From: Planktothrix rubescens CCAP 1459/22
GTDB lineage: Bacteria > Cyanobacteriota > Cyanobacteriia > Cyanobacteriales > Microcoleaceae
Reading direction: 5' to 3'
Assembly (NCBI GenBank): GCA_904830895.1
Contig: LR882958.1
Coordinates: 1,358,001 to 1,422,000, forward strand
DNA length: 64,000 bases
Shown in pieces: positions 47,597 to 62,404 of the stretch. Position 1 is the first letter of the stretch. Every line of letters begins with the position of its first letter. The notes under the pieces were generated by a model. That model was given only the letters and a program-made list of their open reading frames with translations. It had not been told where the DNA came from and searched no databases. Made by a program: the position numbers and the translations under genes.

Positions 47597-47768
47597 TTCG
47601 GGTAAGTTAGGGAGGGGATAAATTTTAGAGACAAAACCCCTAAAATAAAACATTATAACCTCGGTACAGATCGATCTATATTTATTATGATCAGATGACC
47701 TTGTTCTGTTTTAGAAAAATTCGACATAATACAGAAAGCACAATATTCTGTCATGCTCCTAAAAATCC

Positions 47769-48755
47769 ATGAACCCCGTTGATTATCTTCGCATTAGTTT
47801 AATTGACCGTTGCAACTTTCGGTGTCAATATTGTATGCCCGAAGGCACGGAAATTAATTATATCCTACAACAGAATTTATTAACTTTGGATGAACTCCTA
47901 ACCCTGTTACAAGAGGTATTTATCCCGGTTGGATTTACTCGATTTCGCTTAACTGGAGGTGAACCTTTATTGCGTCCTGGGGTAGTGGAATTGGTGCAGC
48001 AAATTAATGCTTTTCCTGAAACCAAAGATGTGGCAATGACAACAAATGGTTTTTTATTAGCAGAAATGGCAGAAGATTTATATAATGCTGGACTGCGACG
48101 GATTAATATTAGTTTAGATTCCCTTGATTCTGATATTTTTGATCAAATTATCGGCAACCGAGGACGCAGCCGATGGCAACAGGTTTGGGCAGGAATACAA
48201 GCAGCCTATCAAGTGGGTTTTAATCCCTTAAAATTAAATGTCGTGGTCATTCCTGGGGTGAATGATCATGAAGTTTTGGATTTAGCAAAATTAACAATAG
48301 AACGACAATGGCACGTTAGATTTATTGAATTTATGCCCATTGGAAATAACGATTTATTTGCCGATCGCGGTTGGATTTCTTCAGAACAATTACGCCAACA
48401 AATTCGCGAAAAATGGGGTTTAGAAGCCTCACAGGTGAAGGGAAACGGCCCTGCGGATGTATTTCAAATACCGGGAGCGCAGGGAACATTAGGATTTATT
48501 AGTCAGATGTCTGAATGTTTTTGCGATCGCTGTAACCGCATGAGATTCTCCGCCGATGGTTGGTTGCGGCCTTGTTTATTAAATGAAACCGGACAAATCG
48601 ACTTAAAAACTCCTCTGCGTCAGGGTGCGACGTTTGAGGAGTTAAGAGAAAAGGTAAGTAACCTATTAGGAATTAAACCCGATATTAATTTTAAACAACG
48701 GGACTCTGGTACAACAGGAAATTATGCCCGTACCATGTCCCAAATTGGCGGATAG
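47769..48755 (+). CDS. moaA: GTP 3',8-cyclase (molybdenum cofactor step 1)
   Basis: 328 residues. Radical-SAM cluster C15-x3-C19-x2-C22 (CNFRCQYC), second cluster C252-x2-C255-x13-C269, and the C-terminal GG tail essential for catalysis. It converts GTP to 3',8-cyclo-GTP together with MoaC in molybdopterin synthesis. Other moa genes are not present here. Confidence 0.96.
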
Positions 48756-48774
48756 CAACCTGAATAATAAGCAG

Positions 48775-48809
48775 GTGGGGTACGTTATTTTTAGTCGATA
48801 ACGCCCCAC
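48775..48809. terminator. Bidirectional terminator between moaA and rpsD
   Basis: GTGGGG-TA-CGTTAT pairs with ATAACG-CCCCAC around a T-rich loop. It lies in the 78-bp gap between convergent genes. Confidence 0.7.
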
Positions 48810-48833
48810 ATAAAATAGAACGGTGAGGAACTC

Positions 48834-49442
48834 TTAGGCTTGACGAGAATAAAATTCAACCACTAACAGTTCATTAATTTGTAAAGCCACCCATTCCCGT
48901 TCAATGACGCTATTTACCTTTGCAGTTAATTGTTCTTTGTCCAACTCCAGATGACCAGGAATATTGGCTAAACCGGGATATTGTAAATTGGCTTTCACCA
49001 GTTCACGGGATTTTTCGGTATTTCTAACACCAATTAATTCCCCAGGTCTGCATTGATAGCTAGGAATATTGACACGACTACCATTAACGGTAACATGACC
49101 ATGGCTGACTAACTGACGAGCCGCTGGAATTGTGGGGGCCATTCCTAAACGGAAAATGGTATTATCCAAACGCATTTCCAAGGTTTGCAGCAACACTTGT
49201 CCGGTGGAACCGGAAGCGCGGCGAGCTTTACGGACATAACGCAATAACTGACGCTCGGAAACGCCGTAGTTATAGCGCAGTTTTTGTTTTTCTTCTAACC
49301 GAACCGCGTATTCTGAACGTTTACGACGGGCTTGGCCGTGTTGTCCAGGGGGATAGGCCTTTCTGGGGGTCTTCCGAGTTAATCCAGGCAAATCGCCCAA
49401 ACGACGAACAATTCTCAGACGGGGGCCTCTATATCGAGCCAT
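48834..49442 (-). CDS. rpsD: 30S ribosomal protein S4
   Basis: 202 residues. [20 protein letters not shown] is the bacterial/plastid S4 N-terminus, [20 protein letters not shown] is conserved, and the S4 RNA-binding domain has [10 protein letters not shown] and [14 protein letters not shown]. It binds 16S rRNA early in 30S assembly. As in cyanobacteria and plastids, it is outside the alpha operon. Confidence 0.97.
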
Positions 49443-49484
49443 CTAACTTTTTCTCCGCATAAAATTTTTTGCACCAACCTTCTA

Positions 49485-49582
49485 TTATACTATGTATTCC
49501 CCCTGATTGATCTGGTTTTTGAGTAATGGCCCGAATCCGGCTTGCTGGAAATGAGTATCGGCTGTTAGTGCATCAGTCATTA
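49485..49582 (-). pseudogene. PIN-domain C-terminal remnant
   Basis: Minus strand reads VMTDALTADTHFQQAGFGPL, the C-terminal pattern of VapC-like PIN nucleases (LTADRHFxQAGFxxLL), up to a stop at 49485. The frame is closed just upstream by TGA. It lies in the rpsD upstream region. Confidence 0.6.
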
Positions 49583-50629: not shown

Positions 50630-50812
50630 TTACCCCTTCATCGTTCCAGGTTGTGCAACCACTGGAGGATATTGGCAAAATGTTTTGGGGAGTTGTTTTT
50701 GGGGTAATATTGTTTCAACAATAATTCTCACCCTTGTACCTACATCCAGGTTTAAGGGAGATTCCAGTTGAAGGGATTTACCATCAAATATTGCATTAAT
50801 TGCTTGAATCAT
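50630..50812 (-). CDS. AF2212/DUF104-like antitoxin, possibly truncated
   Basis: 60 residues. MIQAINAIFDGKSLQLESPL and GTRVRIIVE are the N-terminal barrel of DUF104-type antitoxins. The usual C-terminal toxin-binding part is replaced by a Pro-rich tail (FCQYPPVVAQPGTMKG), so it may be broken. No toxin follows it. Confidence 0.55.
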   Translation of the reverse strand: MIQAINAIFDGKSLQLESPLNLDVGTRVRIIVETILPQKQLPKTFCQYPPVVAQPGTMKG

Positions 50813-51019
50813 AATAATTAAAATGCGCTCAAACCAGTTTTTTAATGATTTATATTAATCCCATAATAGCATTTTTTAGGGAGGCATATCACGGGTTTCG
50901 GGTAACACCACAACCCAATGCCGAAACCAGGTTTCTATAATTTTGGAGGGTTGGGATGTGCGAAACTGCCATCTCCGATGCTGTTGTCTCGTGATCTTTT
51001 AATACTGAAAGCCGAAGAG

Positions 51020-51049
51020 TTGACAGACAACCTGTCTCGTGGTTAGATT
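51020..51049 (+). promoter_or_regulatory. Promoter with overlapping operator upstream of the nurA-like gene
   Basis: TTGACA at 51020-51025 and TAGATT at 51044-51049 (18-bp spacing) form a sigma70-type promoter. GACAG (51022-51026) and CTGTC (51032-51036) are inverted arms that cover the -35 box and spacer. About 85 bases of leader precede the ATG at 51142. Confidence 0.45.
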
Positions 51050-51141
51050 GCAGGGCTGAATGTACAGAGTGATCGTGTGAATGTCAGGGCAGCGACTGTT
51101 ACAATAGATTGTCTTTGCTATAAAACTACTAGAAGTAAGAT

Positions 51142-52374
51142 ATGCCAGGAAAACAGATACCTGATACTGCTATCGAGCAAGTTGCTCAACACATCAACAC
51201 CAGAAGTAATAAAAATCACGGTATTCCCGTGATTGGACATGAAGAGAATATAGAAACTCCTCAAATATTTGAAATTATTCAGTTTGACAAAATTGATGAT
51301 AGCGATAGGAGGTTCTACGCGATAGATGGCAGTTACAACAGTGAGCAGTTTTATAATGGTCTAGCCATAGCAATTTATGCTGCTGGTTACATTTGCTTTC
51401 ATCGAGGTAAGCAAATTAGAATGAATTCATTAGACGATCCAGTTGTACTTGGACAGGCATACTATCCGCAGAATATTTTAATCACACATCACGATCACTT
51501 AAATGCCATTTATGATGAATTTTTAACCTTAGAACCAATAAAATATCTATTCAAATTTCTTGAAGATTCACCAGAAAATGTTTTTCCATATAAAAAAGAA
51601 CAAATTTGCACAAACTTATCAACATTGCTCGGATTCTGTCAGGAAGTCCTAGAAATTGCGCTGATTTTGGAAGTGATTGATCGCCCAGAAACAAAAGCTG
51701 GCGATTTTATTTTAAGAGATGGTACATTACGTCCTCTCCAAATAAAGCAGAAATACTTAGTAAATTTGGGAGAGTATGCTTATAAAAAACAGATAAAAAT
51801 AGTGTCTGTGACTAAGCAATCTCCAGTTAAAATGGAACTAGCTTATACATTCAGACAGATTGATAATTATCTGCAAGATCAGCTTAAGCATGAGTATCCT
51901 TTTGTAGAAACAGAATCCAAACGCCAAAAACTGTGCTGCTGGTTTGAAATTCCAGATGTTGTTCTTAAAGCAGCATATCAGGGTGATATGTTTATTAAAA
52001 AATCAATTAGTGGAGGAAGAGGATTTGGGCTATTTATGGCAGCGAGATTAGATTATGTAGAAAAGCTCCAAAACTATGACTGGCTTATAGCTGATATCAA
52101 CATTTTTGATGCTATTCCACAAATCCGAACAGGCTCGTATGAAAGATGTAGGGAAGAACTTGAGTTAATATTTAAGGAGCTAACTCGGCTTACACAAGAA
52201 CACTATATTCTTGGCTATCCTTACCCATTATGTGAAGTACATAATTTCATATCCTTGAAAAGAAATTTTAAAGATGAGATAATTGCTCGCCTTAAATACT
52301 CTCTTTATAAGGATCAGAGAATGGATAACGTCGATATTGAAAATCTATTTTTAGACACACACGACAGATTTTAG
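51142..52374 (+). CDS. NurA-domain nuclease
   Basis: 410 residues. The NurA fold (RNase H-like 5'-3' nuclease) shows its first metal-binding motif AIDGSYN at Asp62 and the second LRDGTLRP at Asp193, with SVTKQSP and a C-terminal PLCEVHNFIS segment. NurA normally pairs with the HerA ATPase, here encoded 11 bp downstream. In archaea the pair resects DNA ends; in bacteria NurA-HerA modules occur mainly in accessory regions. A substrate of invading DNA is inferred from context. Confidence 0.8.
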   Translation: MPGKQIPDTAIEQVAQHINTRSNKNHGIPVIGHEENIETPQIFEIIQFDKIDDSDRRFYAIDGSYNSEQFYNGLAIAIYAAGYICFHRGKQIRMNSLDDPVVLGQAYYPQNILITHHDHLNAIYDEFLTLEPIKYLFKFLEDSPENVFPYKKEQICTNLSTLLGFCQEVLEIALILEVIDRPETKAGDFILRDGTLRPLQIKQKYLVNLGEYAYKKQIKIVSVTKQSPVKMELAYTFRQIDNYLQDQLKHEYPFVETESKRQKLCCWFEIPDVVLKAAYQGDMFIKKSISGGRGFGLFMAARLDYVEKLQNYDWLIADINIFDAIPQIRTGSYERCREELELIFKELTRLTQEHYILGYPYPLCEVHNFISLKRNFKDEIIARLKYSLYKDQRMDNVDIENLFLDTHDRF

Positions 52375-52385
52375 GAGCGAACACT

Positions 52386-54047
52386 ATGGGAAAAGCAGAT
52401 TTTGGCGTTTTATATGGGCAGAAAACAACTGAAGATGCCCTATTGATATACTCATCCTATGAGGATGCTAAAGCTAGTCCACAAACTGGCGACTTTATTG
52501 TTCTGACACCCAAAGATGAAGGAAATACAAAGTATCTTGCTAGGGTCGAAGCTGAAATTTATGATGAAGATCCTATCTTTAAGTCACAGGAAAAAACGTT
52601 AGTAGCAGTACATTATGCTCGAATTGCAGAAAGAGAGCTTTCTGAGCGAGACAAACAGAAAATGTTCAGTTACACCTACAAAGTTCGGATTCTAGGAACA
52701 TTTAAAGATAGTGGCTCTACCATTGACTTTACAACGGCTGTTAGGAAACTCCCCACAGTTTCTTACATTGCAAGACATCTAAACAAACGCGAAATAGAGT
52801 CAATTCTCAATAAAACCAATGAAAATGGCGCTGAAATTGGATATCTTTGTGTAGGAGAAACTATTTTTAAGGACAAGGGGCCAATTCTTTTCCAAATCGA
52901 TAAATTGCGTAACAAACGCACGATGGTATTTGCTCAATCAGGCTTTGGCAAAACTAATCTTGTTAAGGTACTGCTTTACCATATGACTCGTGATAATTCC
53001 TATGGAAAGTTGATTTTTGATTTGAACGGCGAATATTTTTTGCGTGGCACAGCTACATACGGATTGGGAGATATAGATGAAAATTCAATCCGTGATAATG
53101 TTGTCGTGTATACCGACAAAAAGTTACCAGACACTTATCAAAAACAGAATCGATTTACTTGCGGTGGCAAAGTTACGCTCAATATGCACAGGCACTTAGC
53201 AGTAGGAGACATATTGAATTTTGGTGGTGGTTTTTCTGAAGTAATGAAAGCTTTTCTTCTCTACCTTGATGAAGACGGTGTATCTAATTTTGTGGGAAAT
53301 ATTGATAACTATGTTCAAACTCCAAGCAATCTTTATCGAGATTTTTCGGATTTCTTTGGCGAACAGAAAACAGATAAAAATGGCAACATTAAAGAAGATG
53401 TATCTGCCAGGAAAACAATTATGGCAATTCGGAAAAGGATCCGTCATTTAATTGATGAAGGTAATTTACATTCTGGAGGATCAAATCTTATAGAAGATGT
53501 ATTCAAATATTTGAAGCAAGGAAAGACTGTTATCATTGACCTATCCCTAAAAGACAACATGGATGCCAGCATTATTTCAACTATTCTGGTTCGGAAATTG
53601 TTTGAAAGCAACAAGGAAAAATTCACTTCAGATCAACCAGAAGAAGTTGTCAATGCCGTTGTATTTGTAGAAGAAGCTCAAAATGTTTTATCTCAGGAAT
53701 TCGTTAAGAGTAATGCCAATCCATTTGTTAGAGTTGCCAAAGAAGGACGCAAATTTGGCTTGGGATTAGTCGCTGTAACACAACGCCCATCCGCTATTTC
53801 TGATGAAATTAGAACCCAAGCAGAAAATTTCTTTGCTTTTCATATGGGAAATTCTGACGATATTAAAGCACTGGTAAAGTCTAATATCAATTATGATGGG
53901 GTGATATCGAACTTTATTCAGCGTGAGACAATTGCGGGTAATCTCTATATGGTTTCATCTGATCAAGCTTTCGCCCTCCCTGTACGAGTAACCGAATTTG
54001 AAAAGCTCGTAGAATCAAAAGTTTATAGAGAATCTAAATTTAATTAA
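52386..54047 (+). CDS. HerA-family DNA-translocating ATPase
   Basis: 553 residues. N-terminal HAS-barrel-like beta domain (about 5-120). ATPase core of the HerA/FtsK superfamily: Walker A AQSGFGKTN (183-191), the HerA motif LIFDLNGEY (209-217), Walker B VVFVEEAQN (425-433), and the putative arginine finger region TQRPSAI near 466. It should form a hexamer that drives DNA through a NurA dimer. It ends in TAATG, sharing one base with the next start, which indicates translational coupling. Confidence 0.87.
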   Translation: MGKADFGVLYGQKTTEDALLIYSSYEDAKASPQTGDFIVLTPKDEGNTKYLARVEAEIYDEDPIFKSQEKTLVAVHYARIAERELSERDKQKMFSYTYKVRILGTFKDSGSTIDFTTAVRKLPTVSYIARHLNKREIESILNKTNENGAEIGYLCVGETIFKDKGPILFQIDKLRNKRTMVFAQSGFGKTNLVKVLLYHMTRDNSYGKLIFDLNGEYFLRGTATYGLGDIDENSIRDNVVVYTDKKLPDTYQKQNRFTCGGKVTLNMHRHLAVGDILNFGGGFSEVMKAFLLYLDEDGVSNFVGNIDNYVQTPSNLYRDFSDFFGEQKTDKNGNIKEDVSARKTIMAIRKRIRHLIDEGNLHSGGSNLIEDVFKYLKQGKTVIIDLSLKDNMDASIISTILVRKLFESNKEKFTSDQPEEVVNAVVFVEEAQNVLSQEFVKSNANPFVRVAKEGRKFGLGLVAVTQRPSAISDEIRTQAENFFAFHMGNSDDIKALVKSNINYDGVISNFIQRETIAGNLYMVSSDQAFALPVRVTEFEKLVESKVYRESKFN

Positions 54048-55138
54048 TGGAAAATAATGATTTTTGTACAATTGATCAGAAACTCCTGATTAAAGAACAG
54101 ATTATCCAAAACCTAGAAGATTATGGAGTTTTTTGGGATCGAGATAATCACAAAATCATTGTAAATGACCCCAATGATTTTAGAGAAGTCCAAAGAAAAC
54201 TCTCTGAACAAACTAACTTAAAGGGTCAAGAATATAAAGAAAAAGTTCAGAAGTATTTAGCAGAACCTTCAGATATTAATATATCTAAAATAGATCCATA
54301 TCTTGTTATTGTTGAACCCATAGCAGAACATCGAAGATTATGGGCGTATGCTATATCTCACTGGTCGATACCCGTTACAAATGGTTATGGTAGACGGATT
54401 CGATATTTTGTTTTTGATAGCCAAAATCATAAATTAATCGGAATTATTGGACTTTGTGACCCTGTAATTGGTTTGGGAGTACGAGATGAAAATTCTATTA
54501 ATTGGACAAAAAACCAGAAATTGAAACGACTTTATAATTGTATGACAGCCTATATTTTAGGAGCTATCCCTCCATACAATCGAGTGCTTGCCTCAAAATT
54601 AGTTGCCCTTGCTGTAATGTTTCCAACAGTTCGTCAAGACTTTTATAGAAAATATAAGGATAAATCTTCTCTTATTACAGGGGAAAACAAAAAATCTGAT
54701 CTTGTTTATATTGATACGTTAGGAGCCTTTGGGAAGTCAGCAATCTATAATCGTTTGATTAACTGGGAATTTGTTGATTATACTAAGGGTCAAAGTCATC
54801 TTCATATAACAGCAAATGGAAGTTGGGAACTAATTAAGCAAGTTGTACCACCAGATATTTTTGAAACATACAAATTTGGAAAGGGGCCAAATTGGAAAAT
54901 GCGTATCTTAAAAAGGGGACTAAGAGAACTTGGGTTATCAACAGATATGTTAAGCATTGGTTGGCAGAGAGCATACTATTGTTGTCCATTAGCGGAAAAT
55001 TGGAATGAATATTTATTAGGAGAGACCGATTCTGTTGTCTGGCGAAAATTTACACAAAAAGACTTAGTAACTTATTGGCATCAACGATGGGTTAATCCCA
55101 GAATGGATGTACTACAAGGTAAACTAGATGAGGAGTGA
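54047..55138 (+). CDS. DruA-like (DUF4338) protein
   Basis: 363 residues. Residues about 85-300 match the DUF4338 pattern known from DruA of the Druantia anti-phage system: IRYFVFDSQNHKLIGIIGL, VIGLGVRDENSINW, and ILGAIPPYNRVLASKLVALA. N-terminal helices (1-80) are charged. The molecular function of DruA is not known. No Druantia helicase (DruE) is present; instead the gene is fused by overlap to HerA and NurA. I call it a third component of one operon. Confidence 0.75.
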   Translation: MENNDFCTIDQKLLIKEQIIQNLEDYGVFWDRDNHKIIVNDPNDFREVQRKLSEQTNLKGQEYKEKVQKYLAEPSDINISKIDPYLVIVEPIAEHRRLWAYAISHWSIPVTNGYGRRIRYFVFDSQNHKLIGIIGLCDPVIGLGVRDENSINWTKNQKLKRLYNCMTAYILGAIPPYNRVLASKLVALAVMFPTVRQDFYRKYKDKSSLITGENKKSDLVYIDTLGAFGKSAIYNRLINWEFVDYTKGQSHLHITANGSWELIKQVVPPDIFETYKFGKGPNWKMRILKRGLRELGLSTDMLSIGWQRAYYCCPLAENWNEYLLGETDSVVWRKFTQKDLVTYWHQRWVNPRMDVLQGKLDEE

Positions 55139-55284
55139 CTCTAACATTCCAGTGTACCGCACCCCTTTACACCAAAACCTCATATGTGGGATCAGCCAGA
55201 ATTCTCTCATCAAACTCCATATTTTCCCACTAAAGATAGGAGAAATGACGCGATCGCGATTCTCCTGGGGCGACGCGATTAGGA

Positions 55285-55356
55285 CTATTCATAATCAATT
55301 TCTTGTTGATCTAATGCTAAGAATAACTCTTCAGCATTTAAGATATCGCGTCCTGA
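55285..55356 (-). pseudogene. Possible C-terminal gene fragment
   Basis: Minus strand reads SGRDILNAEELFLALDQQEI and DYE before a stop, with a stop just upstream too. It looks like a helical C-terminus of a small protein but I cannot name it. Confidence 0.25.
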
Positions 55357-55680: not shown

Positions 55681-55812
55681 ACATTTAAGGTCATATCGCG
55701 TCTCTGATTTTGCTCTGACTCTAATCCCAAAGAGATTTAGTTTTCAGCAATGTATCTAGCTTTTCATTTTCGACTAATGACTAACCCATGATATCATTGT
55801 GCAAAACTTGAA

Positions 55813-56421
55813 ATGGCTATGAATCCTTCTATTGTGATGTTTTCTGGATTAAAACAAGCACTTCTGACCCACCTCCCAGGACACCACCGTTGGTTATCCG
55901 TAGTGGCGACGGTGAGTTTGTTTCCGTTGTTTGTTTCCGTTGCTCCGGCTGAGGCTTTTCCTTCCTTTGTCTTAATTCGGCGACAGGACTATAGAAACTG
56001 CACTCAACAGTTAGTTACGGCGGGGCTATCGGTAGAGTTGGCAACTCAAGGCTGCGGAATGGCATCTCGGCCTAGGAATATGGGATATTGTGTCACCCAA
56101 ATGCAGAGAAATGTGGCCGCTCTACCCGTAGAAAAAATCTTATCCGGTTGTCTACAGGTACGGCGTCCCGATGAATTAGCTAATTGTGTGGTTAATATTA
56201 ACAGAAATACCAGTGCATCTGATCCGTTAAATGTTCTGGATAGTTGTCGTCGGAGTGTATTACCGGAAACCTTTTCCAATTGTGTTGTTGGAATGAACCA
56301 AGCTAGTACAAATTTAGGAGTTGATCAATTATTGAAAACCTGTTTAAATCCTCCTGAAAATGTTGTTAAATTAGAACAGGAAAAATCCATTGATTTGCAA
56401 CTCAATACACCCAATCAGTAA
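55813..56421 (+). CDS. Exported Cys-repeat hypothetical protein
   Basis: 202 residues. Signal peptide to about 48 (APAEA). The mature part has four repeats of about 32 residues, each with two cysteines 19-20 residues apart (NCTQQL...QGC, YCVTQM...SGC, NCVVNI...DSC, NCVVGM...KTC), joined by 11-residue links. This predicts a solenoid of disulfide-bonded helical hairpins in the periplasm or outside the cell. The family is not recognised. Confidence 0.65.
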   Translation: MAMNPSIVMFSGLKQALLTHLPGHHRWLSVVATVSLFPLFVSVAPAEAFPSFVLIRRQDYRNCTQQLVTAGLSVELATQGCGMASRPRNMGYCVTQMQRNVAALPVEKILSGCLQVRRPDELANCVVNINRNTSASDPLNVLDSCRRSVLPETFSNCVVGMNQASTNLGVDQLLKTCLNPPENVVKLEQEKSIDLQLNTPNQ

Positions 56422-56430
56422 TTAAAAAAC

Positions 56431-56480
56431 CCTGCAAAGACGCGCCGTGGCAGATACGCGCCGTGGCTCGTCTCTACAGG
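56431..56480. terminator. Hairpin between convergent genes
   Basis: CCTGCAAAGACG and CGTCTCTACAGG form a 12-bp stem (two mismatches) around two ACGCGCCGTGGC copies. It sits between genes ending at 56421 (plus) and 56490 (minus) and may terminate both. Confidence 0.55.
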
Positions 56481-56489
56481 ATAGGATAT

Positions 56490-59400
56490 TTAGAACAGGA
56501 TTACATCATCAGGATTTAGGGTTGTTATGCCCGTAACTCCTTCTAATTTAGCCAGAATCCGAGAATCATTCCCGGTTAAATTATTCCCATTGCCATCATA
56601 AATTAAGTAGGTATCCTTACCACTATCAAAGGCAAATAAACCTGGGCTATTTCCCGATAGAACATTCGTTGAAAGATTGGTTTGTACCGTCAGCAGAATA
56701 TTACCAGTACCCGCAATTAAACTGGTGGATAAACCAATTTGATCGCCCCCAACCTGACCTAAACCCTCAAAATTGTTAATAGAATCATATAAACTACTAC
56801 CAATTTGAGCATTAATTCCCGTCCCCACCGCATTAAACCCGATACCGCCCCCATCCAGGGAGTCCGTATAAATAAACAGGTCTTTTTCTCCAACACTCCC
56901 AATTAAACTATCCCGTCCTAAACCGCCCTGAAGTGTATTGTTGCCAATTCCACCCTGTAACAGATCGTTTCCACTTCCTCCCGATAAACTATCATTTCCA
57001 GCATCCCCTCGCAGGGTGTCATTGCCACCCAGACCGCTCAGGGTATCCTCTCCACCCTGACCATTGAGGTTATCGCTAAAACTGCCTCCGGTGAATGAGT
57101 TGGGGTTATTATCAGCAACGGTTAAGAGGTCAATTGTAATATTGGCCGTAGCTGTTCCCCCTTGACCATCACTAATAATATAGTTGAAGGTATCTGGCCC
57201 GGTCGCATTTCCCAAACGGGTGTACTGAACTAAGGAACCCGCCCGAGTCACTAACCCCTGGGCGGTCGCCGGATTATCCACCGAGGTCAAGGTGAGAACC
57301 CCTCCATCGGGGTCACTATCATTATCCAGGGGAGAAATAGCGAATTGGATACTATTGTTCGTGAAAATTTGGCCGTCATTAACCGCAATCGGAGGATCAT
57401 TAATCTCCGTGATACTAATAGTTAAGGTTTGACTCACCGCCGGATTTTGACCATCACTGACACTATAGAGGAAGACCCCCGCCGCCCCGCTAATATTGGG
57501 TTTGGGAACAAATTCTAACTGAGTAATTTCAGCACTGGTTAAGGTTTGACCAATAATAATCGAGTTAGTTTGACCCGTAATTCTGACGATTCCTTTATTA
57601 CTATCGGGAATACTATTAACAGTAATAATTAACGGATCATTATCGGGATCAATCGGAGCCACAATCCCTAAATTAGTGATTACATCTTCATTAATATTAA
57701 CCGTTGTATTCCCTGGAACAATCGGAGGACGATTTAGGCCAGCAAAATCATTCACATCAAGGGTTGTAACCCCATTCACATTATCTAATTTAGCTAAAAT
57801 TCGAGAATCATTCCCTGTTAAATTATTGCCATTTCCATCATAAATTAGGTAAGTGCTACTACCATCATTAAAGGCAAATAGACCCGGATTTGTACCGGGA
57901 ATCACGTCCCCTGTAATATTAGTTTGTACGGCTGTTCCAATACTTGCAAAAGAGGCAATTACCGTTGTAGCAAAACTAATTCGATCTCCAACCGGAGCCC
58001 CTAACCCTTCAAAGTCGGTAATTGTATCATATAAATTACTACCAATTCGGGATTTAACCTCAGTATTAGAACCAGCATTAAACCCAGACCCTCCGCCATC
58101 ATCAGCGTTATCATAGCGGAATTGGTCATTTCCAGCATTTCCCGTCATGCTATCGGGGGCTAAACCACCGTTTAGGGTATCGTCTCCAATACCACCCTGT
58201 AACAAATCCGTTCCACTTCCTCCCAGGAGTAAATCATTCCCTGCATCTCCTCGGAGGGAATCTTTCCCATCCAGACCGCTTAGGGTATCATCTCCTCCTA
58301 GACCATTGAGGTTATCGCCAAAACTGCCTCCGGCGACTGAATTGGGGTTATTATCAGCAACGGGTAAAAGGTTAATCGTAATGGTGGAATTACTGGTACC
58401 TCCCTTCCCATCACTAATACTGTAGTTGAAACTATCTGGCCCGGTCGCATTTCCTAAACGGGTGTACTGAACTAACGAACCCGCTTGAGTTACTAAACCC
58501 TGGGCTGTGGCGGGATTATCCACCGAGGTCAAGGTGAGAATATCTCCATCGGGGTCAGTATCATTATCTAAAGGAGAAATGGGGAATTGGATGCTATTGT
58601 TGGCAAAAATTGGGCCGTCGGGAACCGCCACCGGAGGTTGATTTAGAGCAATTACCGTAATGGTACTAGCTGCGGTATTACTATTGTTAGTTCCATCATT
58701 CACCTTCACCTCTACTGTCCGGGTAGTGGTATTCGGAGGATTGGCCGTATTGTTATAGATAATTTGTCCGATCGCCGTTTGATAAGCACTAATCGCAGCA
58801 TTCCCGGTTAGGGTCAAAACGCCTGTGTTGCTGTTATAACTACTGGCTGTAATCCCCGTAGGTAACACACCATTAACCGATAAACTTTCCACACTGCCAT
58901 TCAGGGGGTTAGTTAAGGTGATGGTAGCTGACTCGGCGTTGGGATTATCAGGATCGGTAATCACAATATTAGTGGCATTGGCGATCGCAATGGCTGGCTG
59001 TCCCTGGGAAAAGGTTACTTGAGTATTATTTCCCGCTTGACTACCATTTAAGTCTAGGGTTGGGGGTTGATTGGGATTAACAGTAATATTGACCGTCGCG
59101 CTACTGGTGCCGCCATTTCCATCACTAATAGTATAGAGGAAACTAGCTGGCCCAGTATGGTTAGGGGCGGGAGTAAATAGAACATTAGTATTATTTAAAG
59201 TCACTGTTCCATTAAACGGATCACTCACTTGAGTAATAGTTAACGGATCATTATCGGGATCGGTATCATTGGCTAATAGGGTTGAAGATGCGATCGTCAA
59301 GAGTACATTTTGCGTCCCCACCACACTATCATTGACCGCATTCGGTGGCTGGTTGGGTTGATTAATCGCAATCGTGCTGGAGGCTTGTTGAGGGCCACCA

Positions 59401-60434
59401 CTACCCGTATTTCCTTGATCCGTTGTTACCACTTGCAGGGTTGCTGAGGTGGTAAAGGATGCGGGTGGGGTAAAGGTTAAACCATTGAGGGCGGTATTAA
59501 TATTATCAACTTGACCAACTAAGGTAATAGTTGTGGTTCCATCCCCAGAAATTGTGACATTATTCGGGGTTGTACCCAAGGTTAGGATTCCGGTACTAGC
59601 GGTTAAAGTAACCTGTACAGGATTAACGCCAGCATCAGGATCACTAATAGAAATTTGATTCCCAGCAGCTTGACTAAATAAAATCGGTTGGCTACCGTTG
59701 GCATTTTGTGACCCGGGAACCGTATTTACAGGAGGATCATTAACCGCATCCACTGTAATCGTGCTAATCGGAATATTACTACTATCTTGGCGATCGGTAA
59801 CAACAACATTAACTACCCGATTTTGAGTATTGGGATTTTGGGAACTATTGCTATAAACCAGTTGAGAAAGTGCCGTTTCATAACTGGCAATTGGGGCAGT
59901 TCCAGTTAGGAGAATAATTCCCGTTGCTGGGTCATAATTTCCGGCGGTAATACCACTGGGCAAGCTTCCCAGGATAGATAACCCTTCAATTTTACCATCA
60001 GGAATATTGGTTAAAGTAATAGTAGCAGAGGTAAGATCGGTATCATCAGCATCAATAATACTGACACTTCCAGTAATCGCAATGGGAGTTGTTCCTTCAA
60101 CAAAAACCGTACTGTAATTATTCCCGGGTTGGGAACTGCTGAGATCCAAAATAGGAGGAACATTAACCGATACTACATTAACTGTAACGGTTGCGGTTCC
60201 TGTTGCTCCGTTATCATCTCGGATTTTATATTCAAAACTATCAAAACCGGAAAAGTTTTGATCAGGAATATAAGTAATTGATCTTGCACTTCGATTTAAG
60301 CTGGCTGTCCCATTGGCAGGTTCTGTAATTCCAGTGATGGTGAGCAGCCCAACTCCCGTATCATTAGCAGTGATGGTACTATTGGGAATCTGCAACAGAG
60401 TATTCTGTAAACCCGATACTGTGTCATTCTCCAT
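56490..60434 (-). CDS. Cadherin-like/RTX surface protein, C-terminal part of a split gene
   Basis: 1314 residues as read from the ATG at 60434. The frame is open upstream through a Pro/Thr linker to about 60740, so this is really the C-terminal two thirds of the protein begun at 62404. Domains: repeated cadherin-like or VCBS Ig domains (PPNAVNDSVVGTQNVLLTI; NDTDPDNDPLTIT; SPLDNDTDPDGDIL), RTX blocks near 730-770 and 1150-1190 (GGDDTLSGLDGKDSLRG), each followed by a SRILAKL-type closing module. The C-terminus TTLNPDDVILF suits type I secretion. Role: probable adhesin, sheath or motility surface protein. Confidence 0.8.
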   Translation of the reverse strand: MENDTVSGLQNTLLQIPNSTITANDTGVGLLTITGITEPANGTASLNRSARSITYIPDQNFSGFDSFEYKIRDDNGATGTATVTVNVVSVNVPPILDLSSSQPGNNYSTVFVEGTTPIAITGSVSIIDADDTDLTSATITLTNIPDGKIEGLSILGSLPSGITAGNYDPATGIILLTGTAPIASYETALSQLVYSNSSQNPNTQNRVVNVVVTDRQDSSNIPISTITVDAVNDPPVNTVPGSQNANGSQPILFSQAAGNQISISDPDAGVNPVQVTLTASTGILTLGTTPNNVTISGDGTTTITLVGQVDNINTALNGLTFTPPASFTTSATLQVVTTDQGNTGSGGPQQASSTIAINQPNQPPNAVNDSVVGTQNVLLTIASSTLLANDTDPDNDPLTITQVSDPFNGTVTLNNTNVLFTPAPNHTGPASFLYTISDGNGGTSSATVNITVNPNQPPTLDLNGSQAGNNTQVTFSQGQPAIAIANATNIVITDPDNPNAESATITLTNPLNGSVESLSVNGVLPTGITASSYNSNTGVLTLTGNAAISAYQTAIGQIIYNNTANPPNTTTRTVEVKVNDGTNNSNTAASTITVIALNQPPVAVPDGPIFANNSIQFPISPLDNDTDPDGDILTLTSVDNPATAQGLVTQAGSLVQYTRLGNATGPDSFNYSISDGKGGTSNSTITINLLPVADNNPNSVAGGSFGDNLNGLGGDDTLSGLDGKDSLRGDAGNDLLLGGSGTDLLQGGIGDDTLNGGLAPDSMTGNAGNDQFRYDNADDGGGSGFNAGSNTEVKSRIGSNLYDTITDFEGLGAPVGDRISFATTVIASFASIGTAVQTNITGDVIPGTNPGLFAFNDGSSTYLIYDGNGNNLTGNDSRILAKLDNVNGVTTLDVNDFAGLNRPPIVPGNTTVNINEDVITNLGIVAPIDPDNDPLIITVNSIPDSNKGIVRITGQTNSIIIGQTLTSAEITQLEFVPKPNISGAAGVFLYSVSDGQNPAVSQTLTISITEINDPPIAVNDGQIFTNNSIQFAISPLDNDSDPDGGVLTLTSVDNPATAQGLVTRAGSLVQYTRLGNATGPDTFNYIISDGQGGTATANITIDLLTVADNNPNSFTGGSFSDNLNGQGGEDTLSGLGGNDTLRGDAGNDSLSGGSGNDLLQGGIGNNTLQGGLGRDSLIGSVGEKDLFIYTDSLDGGGIGFNAVGTGINAQIGSSLYDSINNFEGLGQVGGDQIGLSTSLIAGTGNILLTVQTNLSTNVLSGNSPGLFAFDSGKDTYLIYDGNGNNLTGNDSRILAKLEGVTGITTLNPDDVILF

Positions 60435-60436
60435 CG

Positions 60437-62404
60437 CTAAAATTGCCGGAGTTGGAGGTTCAACAGGCGGAGGTGTGGGTTGAGATGGAGTTGGCGGTGG
60501 TGGTGTAGTCGGTGAGGTAGTAGGTGGGGTAGTGGTTGGCGGGGTTGGCGTTGTTGGTGTGGGAGTTGGTGAAGTTGTTGGTGTCGGAGTTGGTGAGGTT
60601 GTTGGTGTCGGAGTTGGTGAGGTTGTTGGTGTCGGAGTTGGTGAGGTTGTTGGTGTCGGAGTTGGTGAGGTTGTTGGTGTCGGAGTTGGTGAGGTTGTTG
60701 GTGTCGGAGTTGGTGAGGTTGTTGGTGTGGGTGTGGTGTGGGGGGTGTTGTCGGAGGAAGGGGGGCAGTGGGGTCAATAACAAAGTTAGATTCGCTTAAA
60801 ATACTGGCATTAACTCCCTGTAAGACGGCTAAAAATTCACCTGTATTTTTATCTTTAATAATTGTATTACTGGAATTAGAGGCTTGACCTTGGGAAATTT
60901 GCAGATCTTGAAATGTCAGTCCTCCAGATAACCCAATTTTATCGTTTGTCGTAAAATCCGTAACAATATCCGCTAATTCAACGCTAGTGCCGCCCGTAGT
61001 TCCCGTAATAAAACTACCGCCATTAGGAGCTTGAGTAATCACATAACCAAGAACAAAAATATCATCTCCCGCGCCCCCTGTGAGGGTATCTAATCCAGCT
61101 TCCCCGGCTAATAAATCATTCCCAGCATCACCGGAGAGGAAATCCCGACCGTTACCGCCATTGAGAATATCTTCCCCGGCACCTCCATATAAATTATCGG
61201 CTCCATTATCTCCATTCAGGACATCATCCCCGGCATTCCCAAATAGTTGATCATTATCATCCCCGCCAGAAAGGGTATCATTTCCCAAATCTCCATAGAG
61301 AACATCCGCCCCAAGACCGCCGACTAAACTATCATCATCTCCGCCACCAAAAAGTTGATCATTGCCAGCATCTCCACTCAGGAAGTCCTGACCGGAATTA
61401 CCATATAAAATATCGTCTCCATCTCCTCCAGTAACACTATCGTTACCAATATCACCCGATACCGTATCATTGCCTTTATCCCCATAGAGGAGGTCATCTT
61501 CCCCCCCGCCTCCGATACTATCATTGCCTTGGCCACCATACAAACTATCGGCTCCGGCTCCACCATTCAATGTATCATTATCTCTATCCCCAAAAGCCAG
61601 ATCATTCCCGGCATCCCCAAAGATTAAATCATCTCCTTGACCTCCGCGTAGACAATCATCCTCTGAGCCTCCGATAATGGCATCATTGCCTTCATTACCA
61701 TTAATTTGATCCTGTCCAGCATCTCCTTGGAGGAGGTCATTCCCTCCTAATCCAAAGATACTGTCATTCCCTGCTAATCCAGAAATCGTGTCATTTTGAC
61801 TACTACCAATAATGGTGTCATCTGCCTCTGTCCCTGTCCCCGCACCCTGAATCCGAATTGGTTCGAGTTTGGGACTAGGGGTAGGTGTGGGAGTTGGTGA
61901 AGTTGTTGGTGTGGGAGTTGGTGAGGTTGTCGGTGTAGGACTAGGAGTAGCTGTGGGACTAGGCGTAGCTGTAGGACTAGGTGTGGCTATGGGACTGGGA
62001 GTGGCTGTGGGTGCAGGGGTTTCCGGGCTAAATCCATCGGGAGTAAAAATCAAACTTCCGGCTGGCCCGGTTTTAACAGTTCCGGTTGTTTGACCATTCA
62101 GGGTTTGAAATTGACCAGTTTCTGTTTCAGCTAAATAAACAGGTGTATTAGTTTCAATAGATATTGCTTGTACAACAGGTGTATCGGGTACAAATACGAC
62201 CCCCCCGGTTGCACCGGGTAAGGTAGTTCCGATGCCATTAGAAAGGGGAACAAAAGACTGAACATTTGCTGGAAAAGTCTCAAATCTTCCTTGAATTCCT
62301 GATGAAAAAATTAATACTGAATTTCCCGTATTGTACAGGCTATTACTAGGAGAAATTCTTAAGGATAAATTGGCGGGAATTGTATTGATAATAGAACTTG
62401 TCAT
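60437..62404 (-). CDS. RTX protein, N-terminal part of the same split gene
   Basis: 655 residues as read. Residues 1-125 are beta-rich, followed by a TPSPTATPSPT linker, about 20 RTX nonapeptides (195-430, e.g. GGAGADSLYGGQGNDSI), and a closing module (DIVTDFTTNDKIGL). The last about 105 residues (PHQLRHQQPHQL) are an out-of-frame reading of a Thr/Pro linker whose correct frame reads TTSPTPTP and joins the 56490-60434 part. The break is a one-base difference at about 60733-60775. Intact protein length would be about 1970 residues. Confidence 0.75.
   Translation of the reverse strand: MTSSIINTIPANLSLRISPSNSLYNTGNSVLIFSSGIQGRFETFPANVQSFVPLSNGIGTTLPGATGGVVFVPDTPVVQAISIETNTPVYLAETETGQFQTLNGQTTGTVKTGPAGSLIFTPDGFSPETPAPTATPSPIATPSPTATPSPTATPSPTPTTSPTPTPTTSPTPTPTPSPKLEPIRIQGAGTGTEADDTIIGSSQNDTISGLAGNDSIFGLGGNDLLQGDAGQDQINGNEGNDAIIGGSEDDCLRGGQGDDLIFGDAGNDLAFGDRDNDTLNGGAGADSLYGGQGNDSIGGGGEDDLLYGDKGNDTVSGDIGNDSVTGGDGDDILYGNSGQDFLSGDAGNDQLFGGGDDDSLVGGLGADVLYGDLGNDTLSGGDDNDQLFGNAGDDVLNGDNGADNLYGGAGEDILNGGNGRDFLSGDAGNDLLAGEAGLDTLTGGAGDDIFVLGYVITQAPNGGSFITGTTGGTSVELADIVTDFTTNDKIGLSGGLTFQDLQISQGQASNSSNTIIKDKNTGEFLAVLQGVNASILSESNFVIDPTAPLPPTTPPTPHPHQQPHQLRHQQPHQLRHQQPHQLRHQQPHQLRHQQPHQLRHQQPHQLRHQQLHQLPHQQRQPRQPLPHLLPHRLHHHRQLHLNPHLRLLNLQLRQF
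60556..60735 (-). repeat. Seven-plus 24-bp tandem repeats in a Pro/Thr linker
   Basis: GGTGTCGGAGTTGGTGAGGT plus TGTT units start at 60556, 60580, 60604, 60628, 60652, 60676, 60700 and, in part, 60724. The unit encodes eight residues (TTSPTPTP). Copy-number change keeps frame; the frameshift lies beyond the array, next to two six-G runs (60740-60745 and 60760-60765). Confidence 0.9.

Follow-up and report, generated by a model that had tools for sequence, protein, structure and literature searches.

We identified a three-gene operon encoding a NurA-family nuclease, a HerA-family ATPase and a DruA protein in the genome of Planktothrix rubescens CCAP 1459/22 (5.70 Mb), within a stretch of 64,000 nucleotides (positions 1358001-1422000) that we refer to as the window. 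The triple is a widespread, mobile unit. It may constitute a horizontally moving anti-phage or anti-plasmid operon with the logic of a restriction-modification system, in which DruA would mark self DNA and HerA-NurA would destroy DNA that is unmarked, a reading to which we give about an even chance.

Genes of the operon

The first gene (51142-52374, + strand) encodes a NurA-family nuclease of 410 amino acids with an RNase H-like fold, the second (52386-54047, +) a HerA-family ATPase/DNA translocase of 553 amino acids, and the third (54047-55138, +) a DruA (DUF4338) protein of 363 amino acids with a predicted GNAT fold, the proposed self-marking component. The nearest solved relatives of NurA and HerA are TdpB and TdpA, respectively. 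Eleven bases separate nurA from herA, and herA and druA join in a TAATG overlap. An earlier note on this DNA had described three tightly packed genes for NurA, HerA and DruA; the open reading frames (ORFs), their spacing and the Pfam matches agree with that description.

NurA and HerA domains are encoded adjacently, and their matches to PF09376 and PF01935 both exceed the cut-offs. The NurA match is weak (26.0 bits, cut-off 21, E 8e-6). A genome-wide search with PF09376 at E 0.001 missed the NurA of the window and returned a single, different NurA gene (E 3.4e-44), so we consider the window NurA divergent. It has no match among the PADLOC protein models and scores 15.7 bits against the cut-off of 400 for the NCBIfam NurA_Sulf equivalog. 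The fold search settles the weak sequence match: TdpB is the closest solved fold, nearer than repair NurA, and the operon thus contains a TdpB-type NurA nuclease. The Asp motifs, described earlier as intact, are conserved across 19 sequences, with D62, D193 and H367 invariant and E126 nearly so. Alignments A1-A3 comprise 19 proteins each and exclude cut loci and the copies from two other cyanobacterial genomes described below (G157 and G027).

HerA matches the HerA central domain PF01935 (E 2.4e-16) and the PADLOC HerA model (1e-29). Walker A/B motifs had been reported for it earlier; Walker-A residues K189 and T190 and acidic residues E429 and E430 are invariant in 19 sequences, as are D212 and E216. 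In a profile search of solved structures, TdpA (8wet_A, E 1.1e-28) was the top of nine distinct solved sequences at E ≤0.001, ahead of HerA 4d2i (1.1e-17). The cut-offs of the NCBIfam repair HerA models were not reached (64.4 bits against 800 and 62.9 against 970).

The assignment of the third gene to DUF4338/DruA is upheld by hidden Markov model searches (PF14236, E 2.6e-65; PADLOC DruA, 2.4e-78), and a sequence search of solved structures with this protein gave no match. The model of DruA has a predicted GNAT fold like that of phage Mu Mom (8bv8). Residues R146 and Y234 are invariant across 29 hand-picked relatives, distant phage ones included (alignment A6, which excludes the near copies L002, L013, G157 and G027, the short second DruA-like genes of viral contigs L085 and L086, and the divergent G201 protein). 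The available part of one paper lists DruA as a Druantia protein of unknown function (PMC7251935), and that of another describes DUF4338 as a GNAT found among variable fusions of DndF (PMC10853773).

Distribution and mobility of the triple

A scan of genome contigs with the NurA protein, which reaches only NurA relatives of at least about 50% identity, returned 21 loci. HerA follows NurA in 20 of them, and the remaining contig ends within NurA. DruA adjoins NurA-HerA in all 18 loci whose contig extends beyond HerA; L003, L005 and L021 do not extend so far (the L005 frame for HerA breaks off after 269 amino acids, about 120 bases short of the contig end). DruA stands first in the gene order of L016, and L012 and L013 are near copies. 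No other family is common to more than two loci, so the unit consists of NurA, HerA and DruA. Hosts include cyanobacteria, Deltaproteobacteria, Calditrichaeota, Patescibacteria (Azambacteria, Falkowbacteria, Parcubacteria), Dehalococcoidia, Ignavibacteria, Tannerella, Mucilaginibacter and Treponema, Bacteroidota and Spirochaetota thus being represented. Retention of the triple in other genomes (18/18 informative loci) indicates that it is not a chance neighbourhood.

The DruA proteins fall into two types that are about 30% identical, whereas the HerAs are 60-97% identical to that of the window. Type A occurs in the window and in L002, L004, L006, L008, L009 and L016, and type B in 12 loci. Well-supported branches of the HerA tree require at least three changes of DruA type. 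Numbers of changes as low were obtained in 30-31 of 500 shuffles, so the DruA types are still clustered on the HerA tree.

We also identified a second triple. PF14236 occurs in six of 373 cyanobacterial genomes, three of which have the window's kind. Two others (G030 and G235) encode, in order, a NurA-like protein of 384-392 amino acids, a HerA of 602-611 amino acids (DUF87 over cut-off) and a DruA that shares about 64% identity with the window protein. The HerAs of the two triples share 25% identity over 107 residues, and the NurAs have no meaningful BLAST match to one another. The second NurAs fall under the PF09376 cut-off of 21 (19.2 and 14.7 bits) and gave no match in a search of solved structures; their identity is based on weak matches, DGG/DGS-like motifs recognized by eye and operon order. 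This NurA occurs in two of 244 cyanobacterial genomes, again G030 and G235. Judged from sequence, the second triple is an independent pairing of DruA with a barely related NurA-HerA. The presence of similar DruAs on unlike NurA-HerA pairs speaks for DruA acting together with machines of this kind. The last of the six genomes (G201) encodes a divergent DruA of 246 amino acids (L090, 5822-6562) that adjoins a sulfotransferase-like gene, and NurA and HerA are absent among the three downstream neighbours scanned.

The triple of the window is rare in cyanobacteria and scattered over phyla; defence genes are expected to be accessory and mobile in this way. A NurA profile (E 1e-10) matched four of 386 cyanobacterial genomes: the source genome (G000), G157 of the same genus, G027, and G284, in which the match is a frame of 200 amino acids. 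All three genes are present in G157 and G027. In G284 (L037) the first 193 NurA residues are matched and HerA and DruA have no match in the 13 kb examined; we read this NurA as a decayed or partial copy.

In G157 the operon shares a contig with rpsD and lies on the same side of it as in the source genome. The block with the entire triple (50936-55258) is 94% identical there by blastn, at the same site near rpsD, compared with 90% upstream (47714-49497) and 79% downstream (55781-59087); identity rises to 97% over 70 bp at 55276-55345. Synonymous distances to G157 are 0.263 for NurA and 0.219 for HerA but just 0.105 for DruA, which suggests recombination. The ratio of nonsynonymous to synonymous substitution (dN/dS) is 0.08-0.15 for all three genes relative to G157 and L002. 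A third genome of the genus (G261) has no NurA match, and a HEAT-repeat ORF occupies the rpsD site instead; its contig (L042) ends there, so that the empty site is incomplete.

DruA on plasmids and in viruses

Fourteen plasmid records match DruA, and six were examined. A DEAD/DEAH-box helicase is encoded near DruA in five of these (H1-H4, H9) and a DUF3883 protein in the sixth. Three plasmid DruAs, labelled Druantia I here, group on the type B side (100/99) under midpoint rooting and with a long-branch warning. Searches for NurA in the plasmids and in viral contigs found none.

DruA-like genes are present in four viral contigs, with no NurA or HerA in the stretches examined (15.7 of 84 kb for L086). 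One (L078/L084) encodes a DruA 58% identical to that of the window, followed by an ORF of 149 amino acids and the terminase large subunit. On L086, two DruA-like genes have a polymerase B, a clamp-loader-like ATPase and a sub-threshold glycosyltransferase nearby, and L087 has one DruA-like gene near a terminase. On L085 (7756-10548), DruA-like, Mom (PF25680, 1e-41) and DruA-like genes stand in a row, with a ribonucleotide reductase gene and one for a DnaB-like helicase upstream; this is a candidate cluster for hypermodification of phage DNA.

The window DruA as query matched neither phage records nor viral contigs, and the viral links were made by other queries: alignment A2 led to one contig and a DruA from Patescibacteria to three, and a viral DruA-like protein supplied the rest. 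With the L078 DruA as query, only the protein itself was found in the viral contigs, together with three Pelagibacter phage records at 24-26% identity. Among 50,697 phage records, 31 matched the L086 protein, and Synechococcus phages account for 25 of these. The DruA-like gene lies amid genes for the sliding clamp and clamp loader in two of them, S-SCSM2R and S-PRM1; the S-SCSM2R record annotates it as 'methylcarbamoylase mom'. In Pelagibacter phage Mosig the gene lies near genes for a 2OG-Fe(II) oxygenase and MazG. The stretches of these three genomes that we examined have no annotated NurA or HerA. Six Synechococcus phages with DruA-like proteins, recognized by structure, appear in the accessible portion of PMC12774648. 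Such viral copies are expected if phages have borrowed an enzyme that marks DNA in order to evade restriction; alternatively, they may function as decoys.

Proposed function and alternatives

By homology, the HerA ring would pump DNA through itself into the NurA dimer for degradation, the mechanism given for these families in the part of PMC9960219 available. The GNAT-fold DruA would put a non-methyl group on host DNA; marked DNA would stop the HerA-NurA machine or fail to load, and unmarked incoming DNA would be destroyed. We infer DNA modification by DruA, self-protection by the mark and a defence role from the protein families, catalytic residues, co-occurrence, second pairing, exchange of DruA types, TdpAB kinship, GNAT model and viral copies. 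Pfam indicates that neither NurA nor HerA has a separate domain for DNA recognition, so discrimination of self from non-self probably lies in DruA. The earlier note proposed that DruA recognises or marks foreign DNA. We favour marking of host DNA instead because of the kinship with TdpAB, the Mom-like GNAT fold and the viral copies with no NurA-HerA in the stretches examined. A broader and more tentative proposal, somewhat short of an even chance, is that DruA proteins form a new enzyme family of GNAT type that modifies DNA, providing anti-restriction marks to phages and, to bacteria, the part that marks self in at least two NurA-HerA restriction systems of independent origin. Druantia I would then be modification-linked too, and DruA would have the first function proposed for it.

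Several observations weigh against self-marking by DruA. Foldseek E-values for the GNAT fold are weak (best 0.04), and protein- and polyamine-acetylating GNATs match the DruA model as well as Mom does, so the fold match does not fix the substrate. Profile comparison of DruA with Mom by hhalign was not significant (probability 0.9%, E 0.06; 0.5%, E 0.13; NurA control, E 0.52; the Mom alignment, A5, holds 10 proteins, and 284 phage records match Mom). The Pfam Mom family PF25680 has no match in the window DruA, for which PF14236 is alone at E ≤1. The GNAT pyrophosphate loop appears degenerate by eye. The second-triple HerA searched alone matched two solved structures, neither of them TdpA. DruA is also a component of Druantia I, and the portion of PMC10853773 available names self proteins, rather than DNA, as the likely suicidal target of the GNAT in DndF fusions. 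Matches to defence genes in the flanks were modest in raw counts (at least two type IIG restriction-modification genes and at least one each of PDC-S05, TOTE and Schlafen-type, among 93 proteins from up to three ORFs of at least 80 amino acids on each side of the 21 loci).

DruA could instead lack catalytic activity and serve as a sensor or loader, a DNA-binding subunit of GNAT fold that recognises features of foreign DNA and delivers HerA-NurA to them, with the phage copies acting as decoys or inhibitors. The degenerate-looking loop and the negative comparison with Mom would fit, as would the status of DruA as the most divergent and exchangeable subunit, its types differing far more than the HerAs. 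However, among close relatives DruA is conserved as much as its partners, the invariance of R146 and Y234 out to distant phage seems more than a decoy needs, and the viral copies have genes for replication, packaging and, in one case, Mom nearby. We consider this explanation rather unlikely. Still less probable, in our view, is that DruA acetylates proteins, tRNA or small molecules as an effector or regulator fired by DNA sensing through HerA-NurA. The equal fit of polyamine and protein acetyltransferases to the model and the DUF4338 GNAT listed among DndF fusions speak for it, but a NurA with conserved catalytic residues already provides an effector, and a cyanophage DruA-like gene amid replication genes would be odd for a host-killing one. 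The operon might also serve ordinary DNA repair, with DruA as an accessory, since end resection is the canonical role of HerA-NurA (PMC9960219, in the part available). This seems very improbable given the scattered distribution and the rarity among cyanobacteria, the genome of the same genus with another ORF at the rpsD site, the separate, strongly matching NurA already in the genome, and the nearer kinship of the window NurA to TdpB than to repair NurA.

Genomic setting

Reading of translations places the rpsD-like and moaA-like genes, which the earlier note had put next to the operon, upstream of it. Its picture of an operon ringed by toxin-antitoxin genes stands on the upstream side, where a PIN toxin (PF01850, 50021-50413) with a small partner ORF lacking a Pfam match and an AF2212-like ORF (match below threshold) were identified, but not downstream, where an ORF of 76 amino acids has no Pfam match. 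A 259-bp stretch beside the operon (50678-50936) overlaps the small AF2212-like ORF; it has two copies in G157 (L036, 6660-6918 and 7436-7694) and one in G261, at the same site.

A scan for promoters and terminators gave a signal no higher than in shuffles, and the search for element-end repeats around the operon gave just short pairs, mostly 70-90% alike. Carriage as cargo of a transposon with its own integrase was considered and dropped, as no integrase was recognized by reading the ORFs beside the operon. Two large ORFs that look like RTX/cadherin-type repeat proteins abut on the - strand at 56490-60434 (1314 amino acids) and 60437-62404 (655 amino acids). The end of the latter is an array of 24-bp repeats (60550-60756, 8.7 copies) encoding HQQPHQLR-like residues. 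The abutting ORFs look like a frame slip inside one gene, possibly phase-variable or an effect of assembly.

Comparison with known systems

The literature searched, which leaves many papers outside its reach, contains no description of a named system with these three parts, in line with the earlier note, nor of DruA as a DNA modifier; PADLOC was compared by protein models. None of the outcomes that the note had set against its proposal was encountered, as the DUF4338 match is present, the genes stand together elsewhere and the triple was not found catalogued. If our interpretation is correct, a widespread defence operon found in no paper searched can be named, DruA gains a chemical function that can be tested, and a new kind of DNA modification is predicted to be common to bacteria and marine phages.

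Druantia type I has a DruA that Pfam and PADLOC assign to the family of the window protein. The link made to it earlier stands for this shared family and goes no further: the window DruA is partnered with HerA-NurA, no DruE-sized helicase adjoins it, and the largest ORF in the 49.4-56.4 kb searched for DruE is the HerA itself. A simple Druantia variant was therefore dropped. Mom (8bv8, PF25680) resembles DruA in its GNAT fold and carriage by phages, one viral contig having adjoining Mom and DruA-like genes, but DruA has no significant sequence or profile similarity to it. HerA is paired with SIR2 in defence. HerA-DUF4297 likewise combines a HerA-type ATPase with an effector, according to the parts available of PMC11291478 and PMC12198126. 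Unlike in both of these systems, the effector in the window is NurA and the operon has a fixed third gene. Canonical HerA-NurA comprises the same two families, whereas the window pair is rare in cyanobacteria, mobile and tied to DruA, and its NurA is structurally nearer to TdpB.

The closest comparison is with TdpABC, a phosphorothioation-linked system of thermophiles to whose TdpAB part the structures 8wet, 8wfd and 8y1k belong. TdpC is the phosphorothioation enzyme, the DNA modification protects the host of TdpAB, and TdpABC is likewise of three-gene size. TdpAB is the nearest solved relative of the window HerA and NurA by sequence, and of NurA also by fold, whereas the third gene of the window operon encodes DruA, with its GNAT-fold model. 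If our proposal holds, the destructive HerA-NurA machinery can be reused and combined with various genes for marking or specificity.

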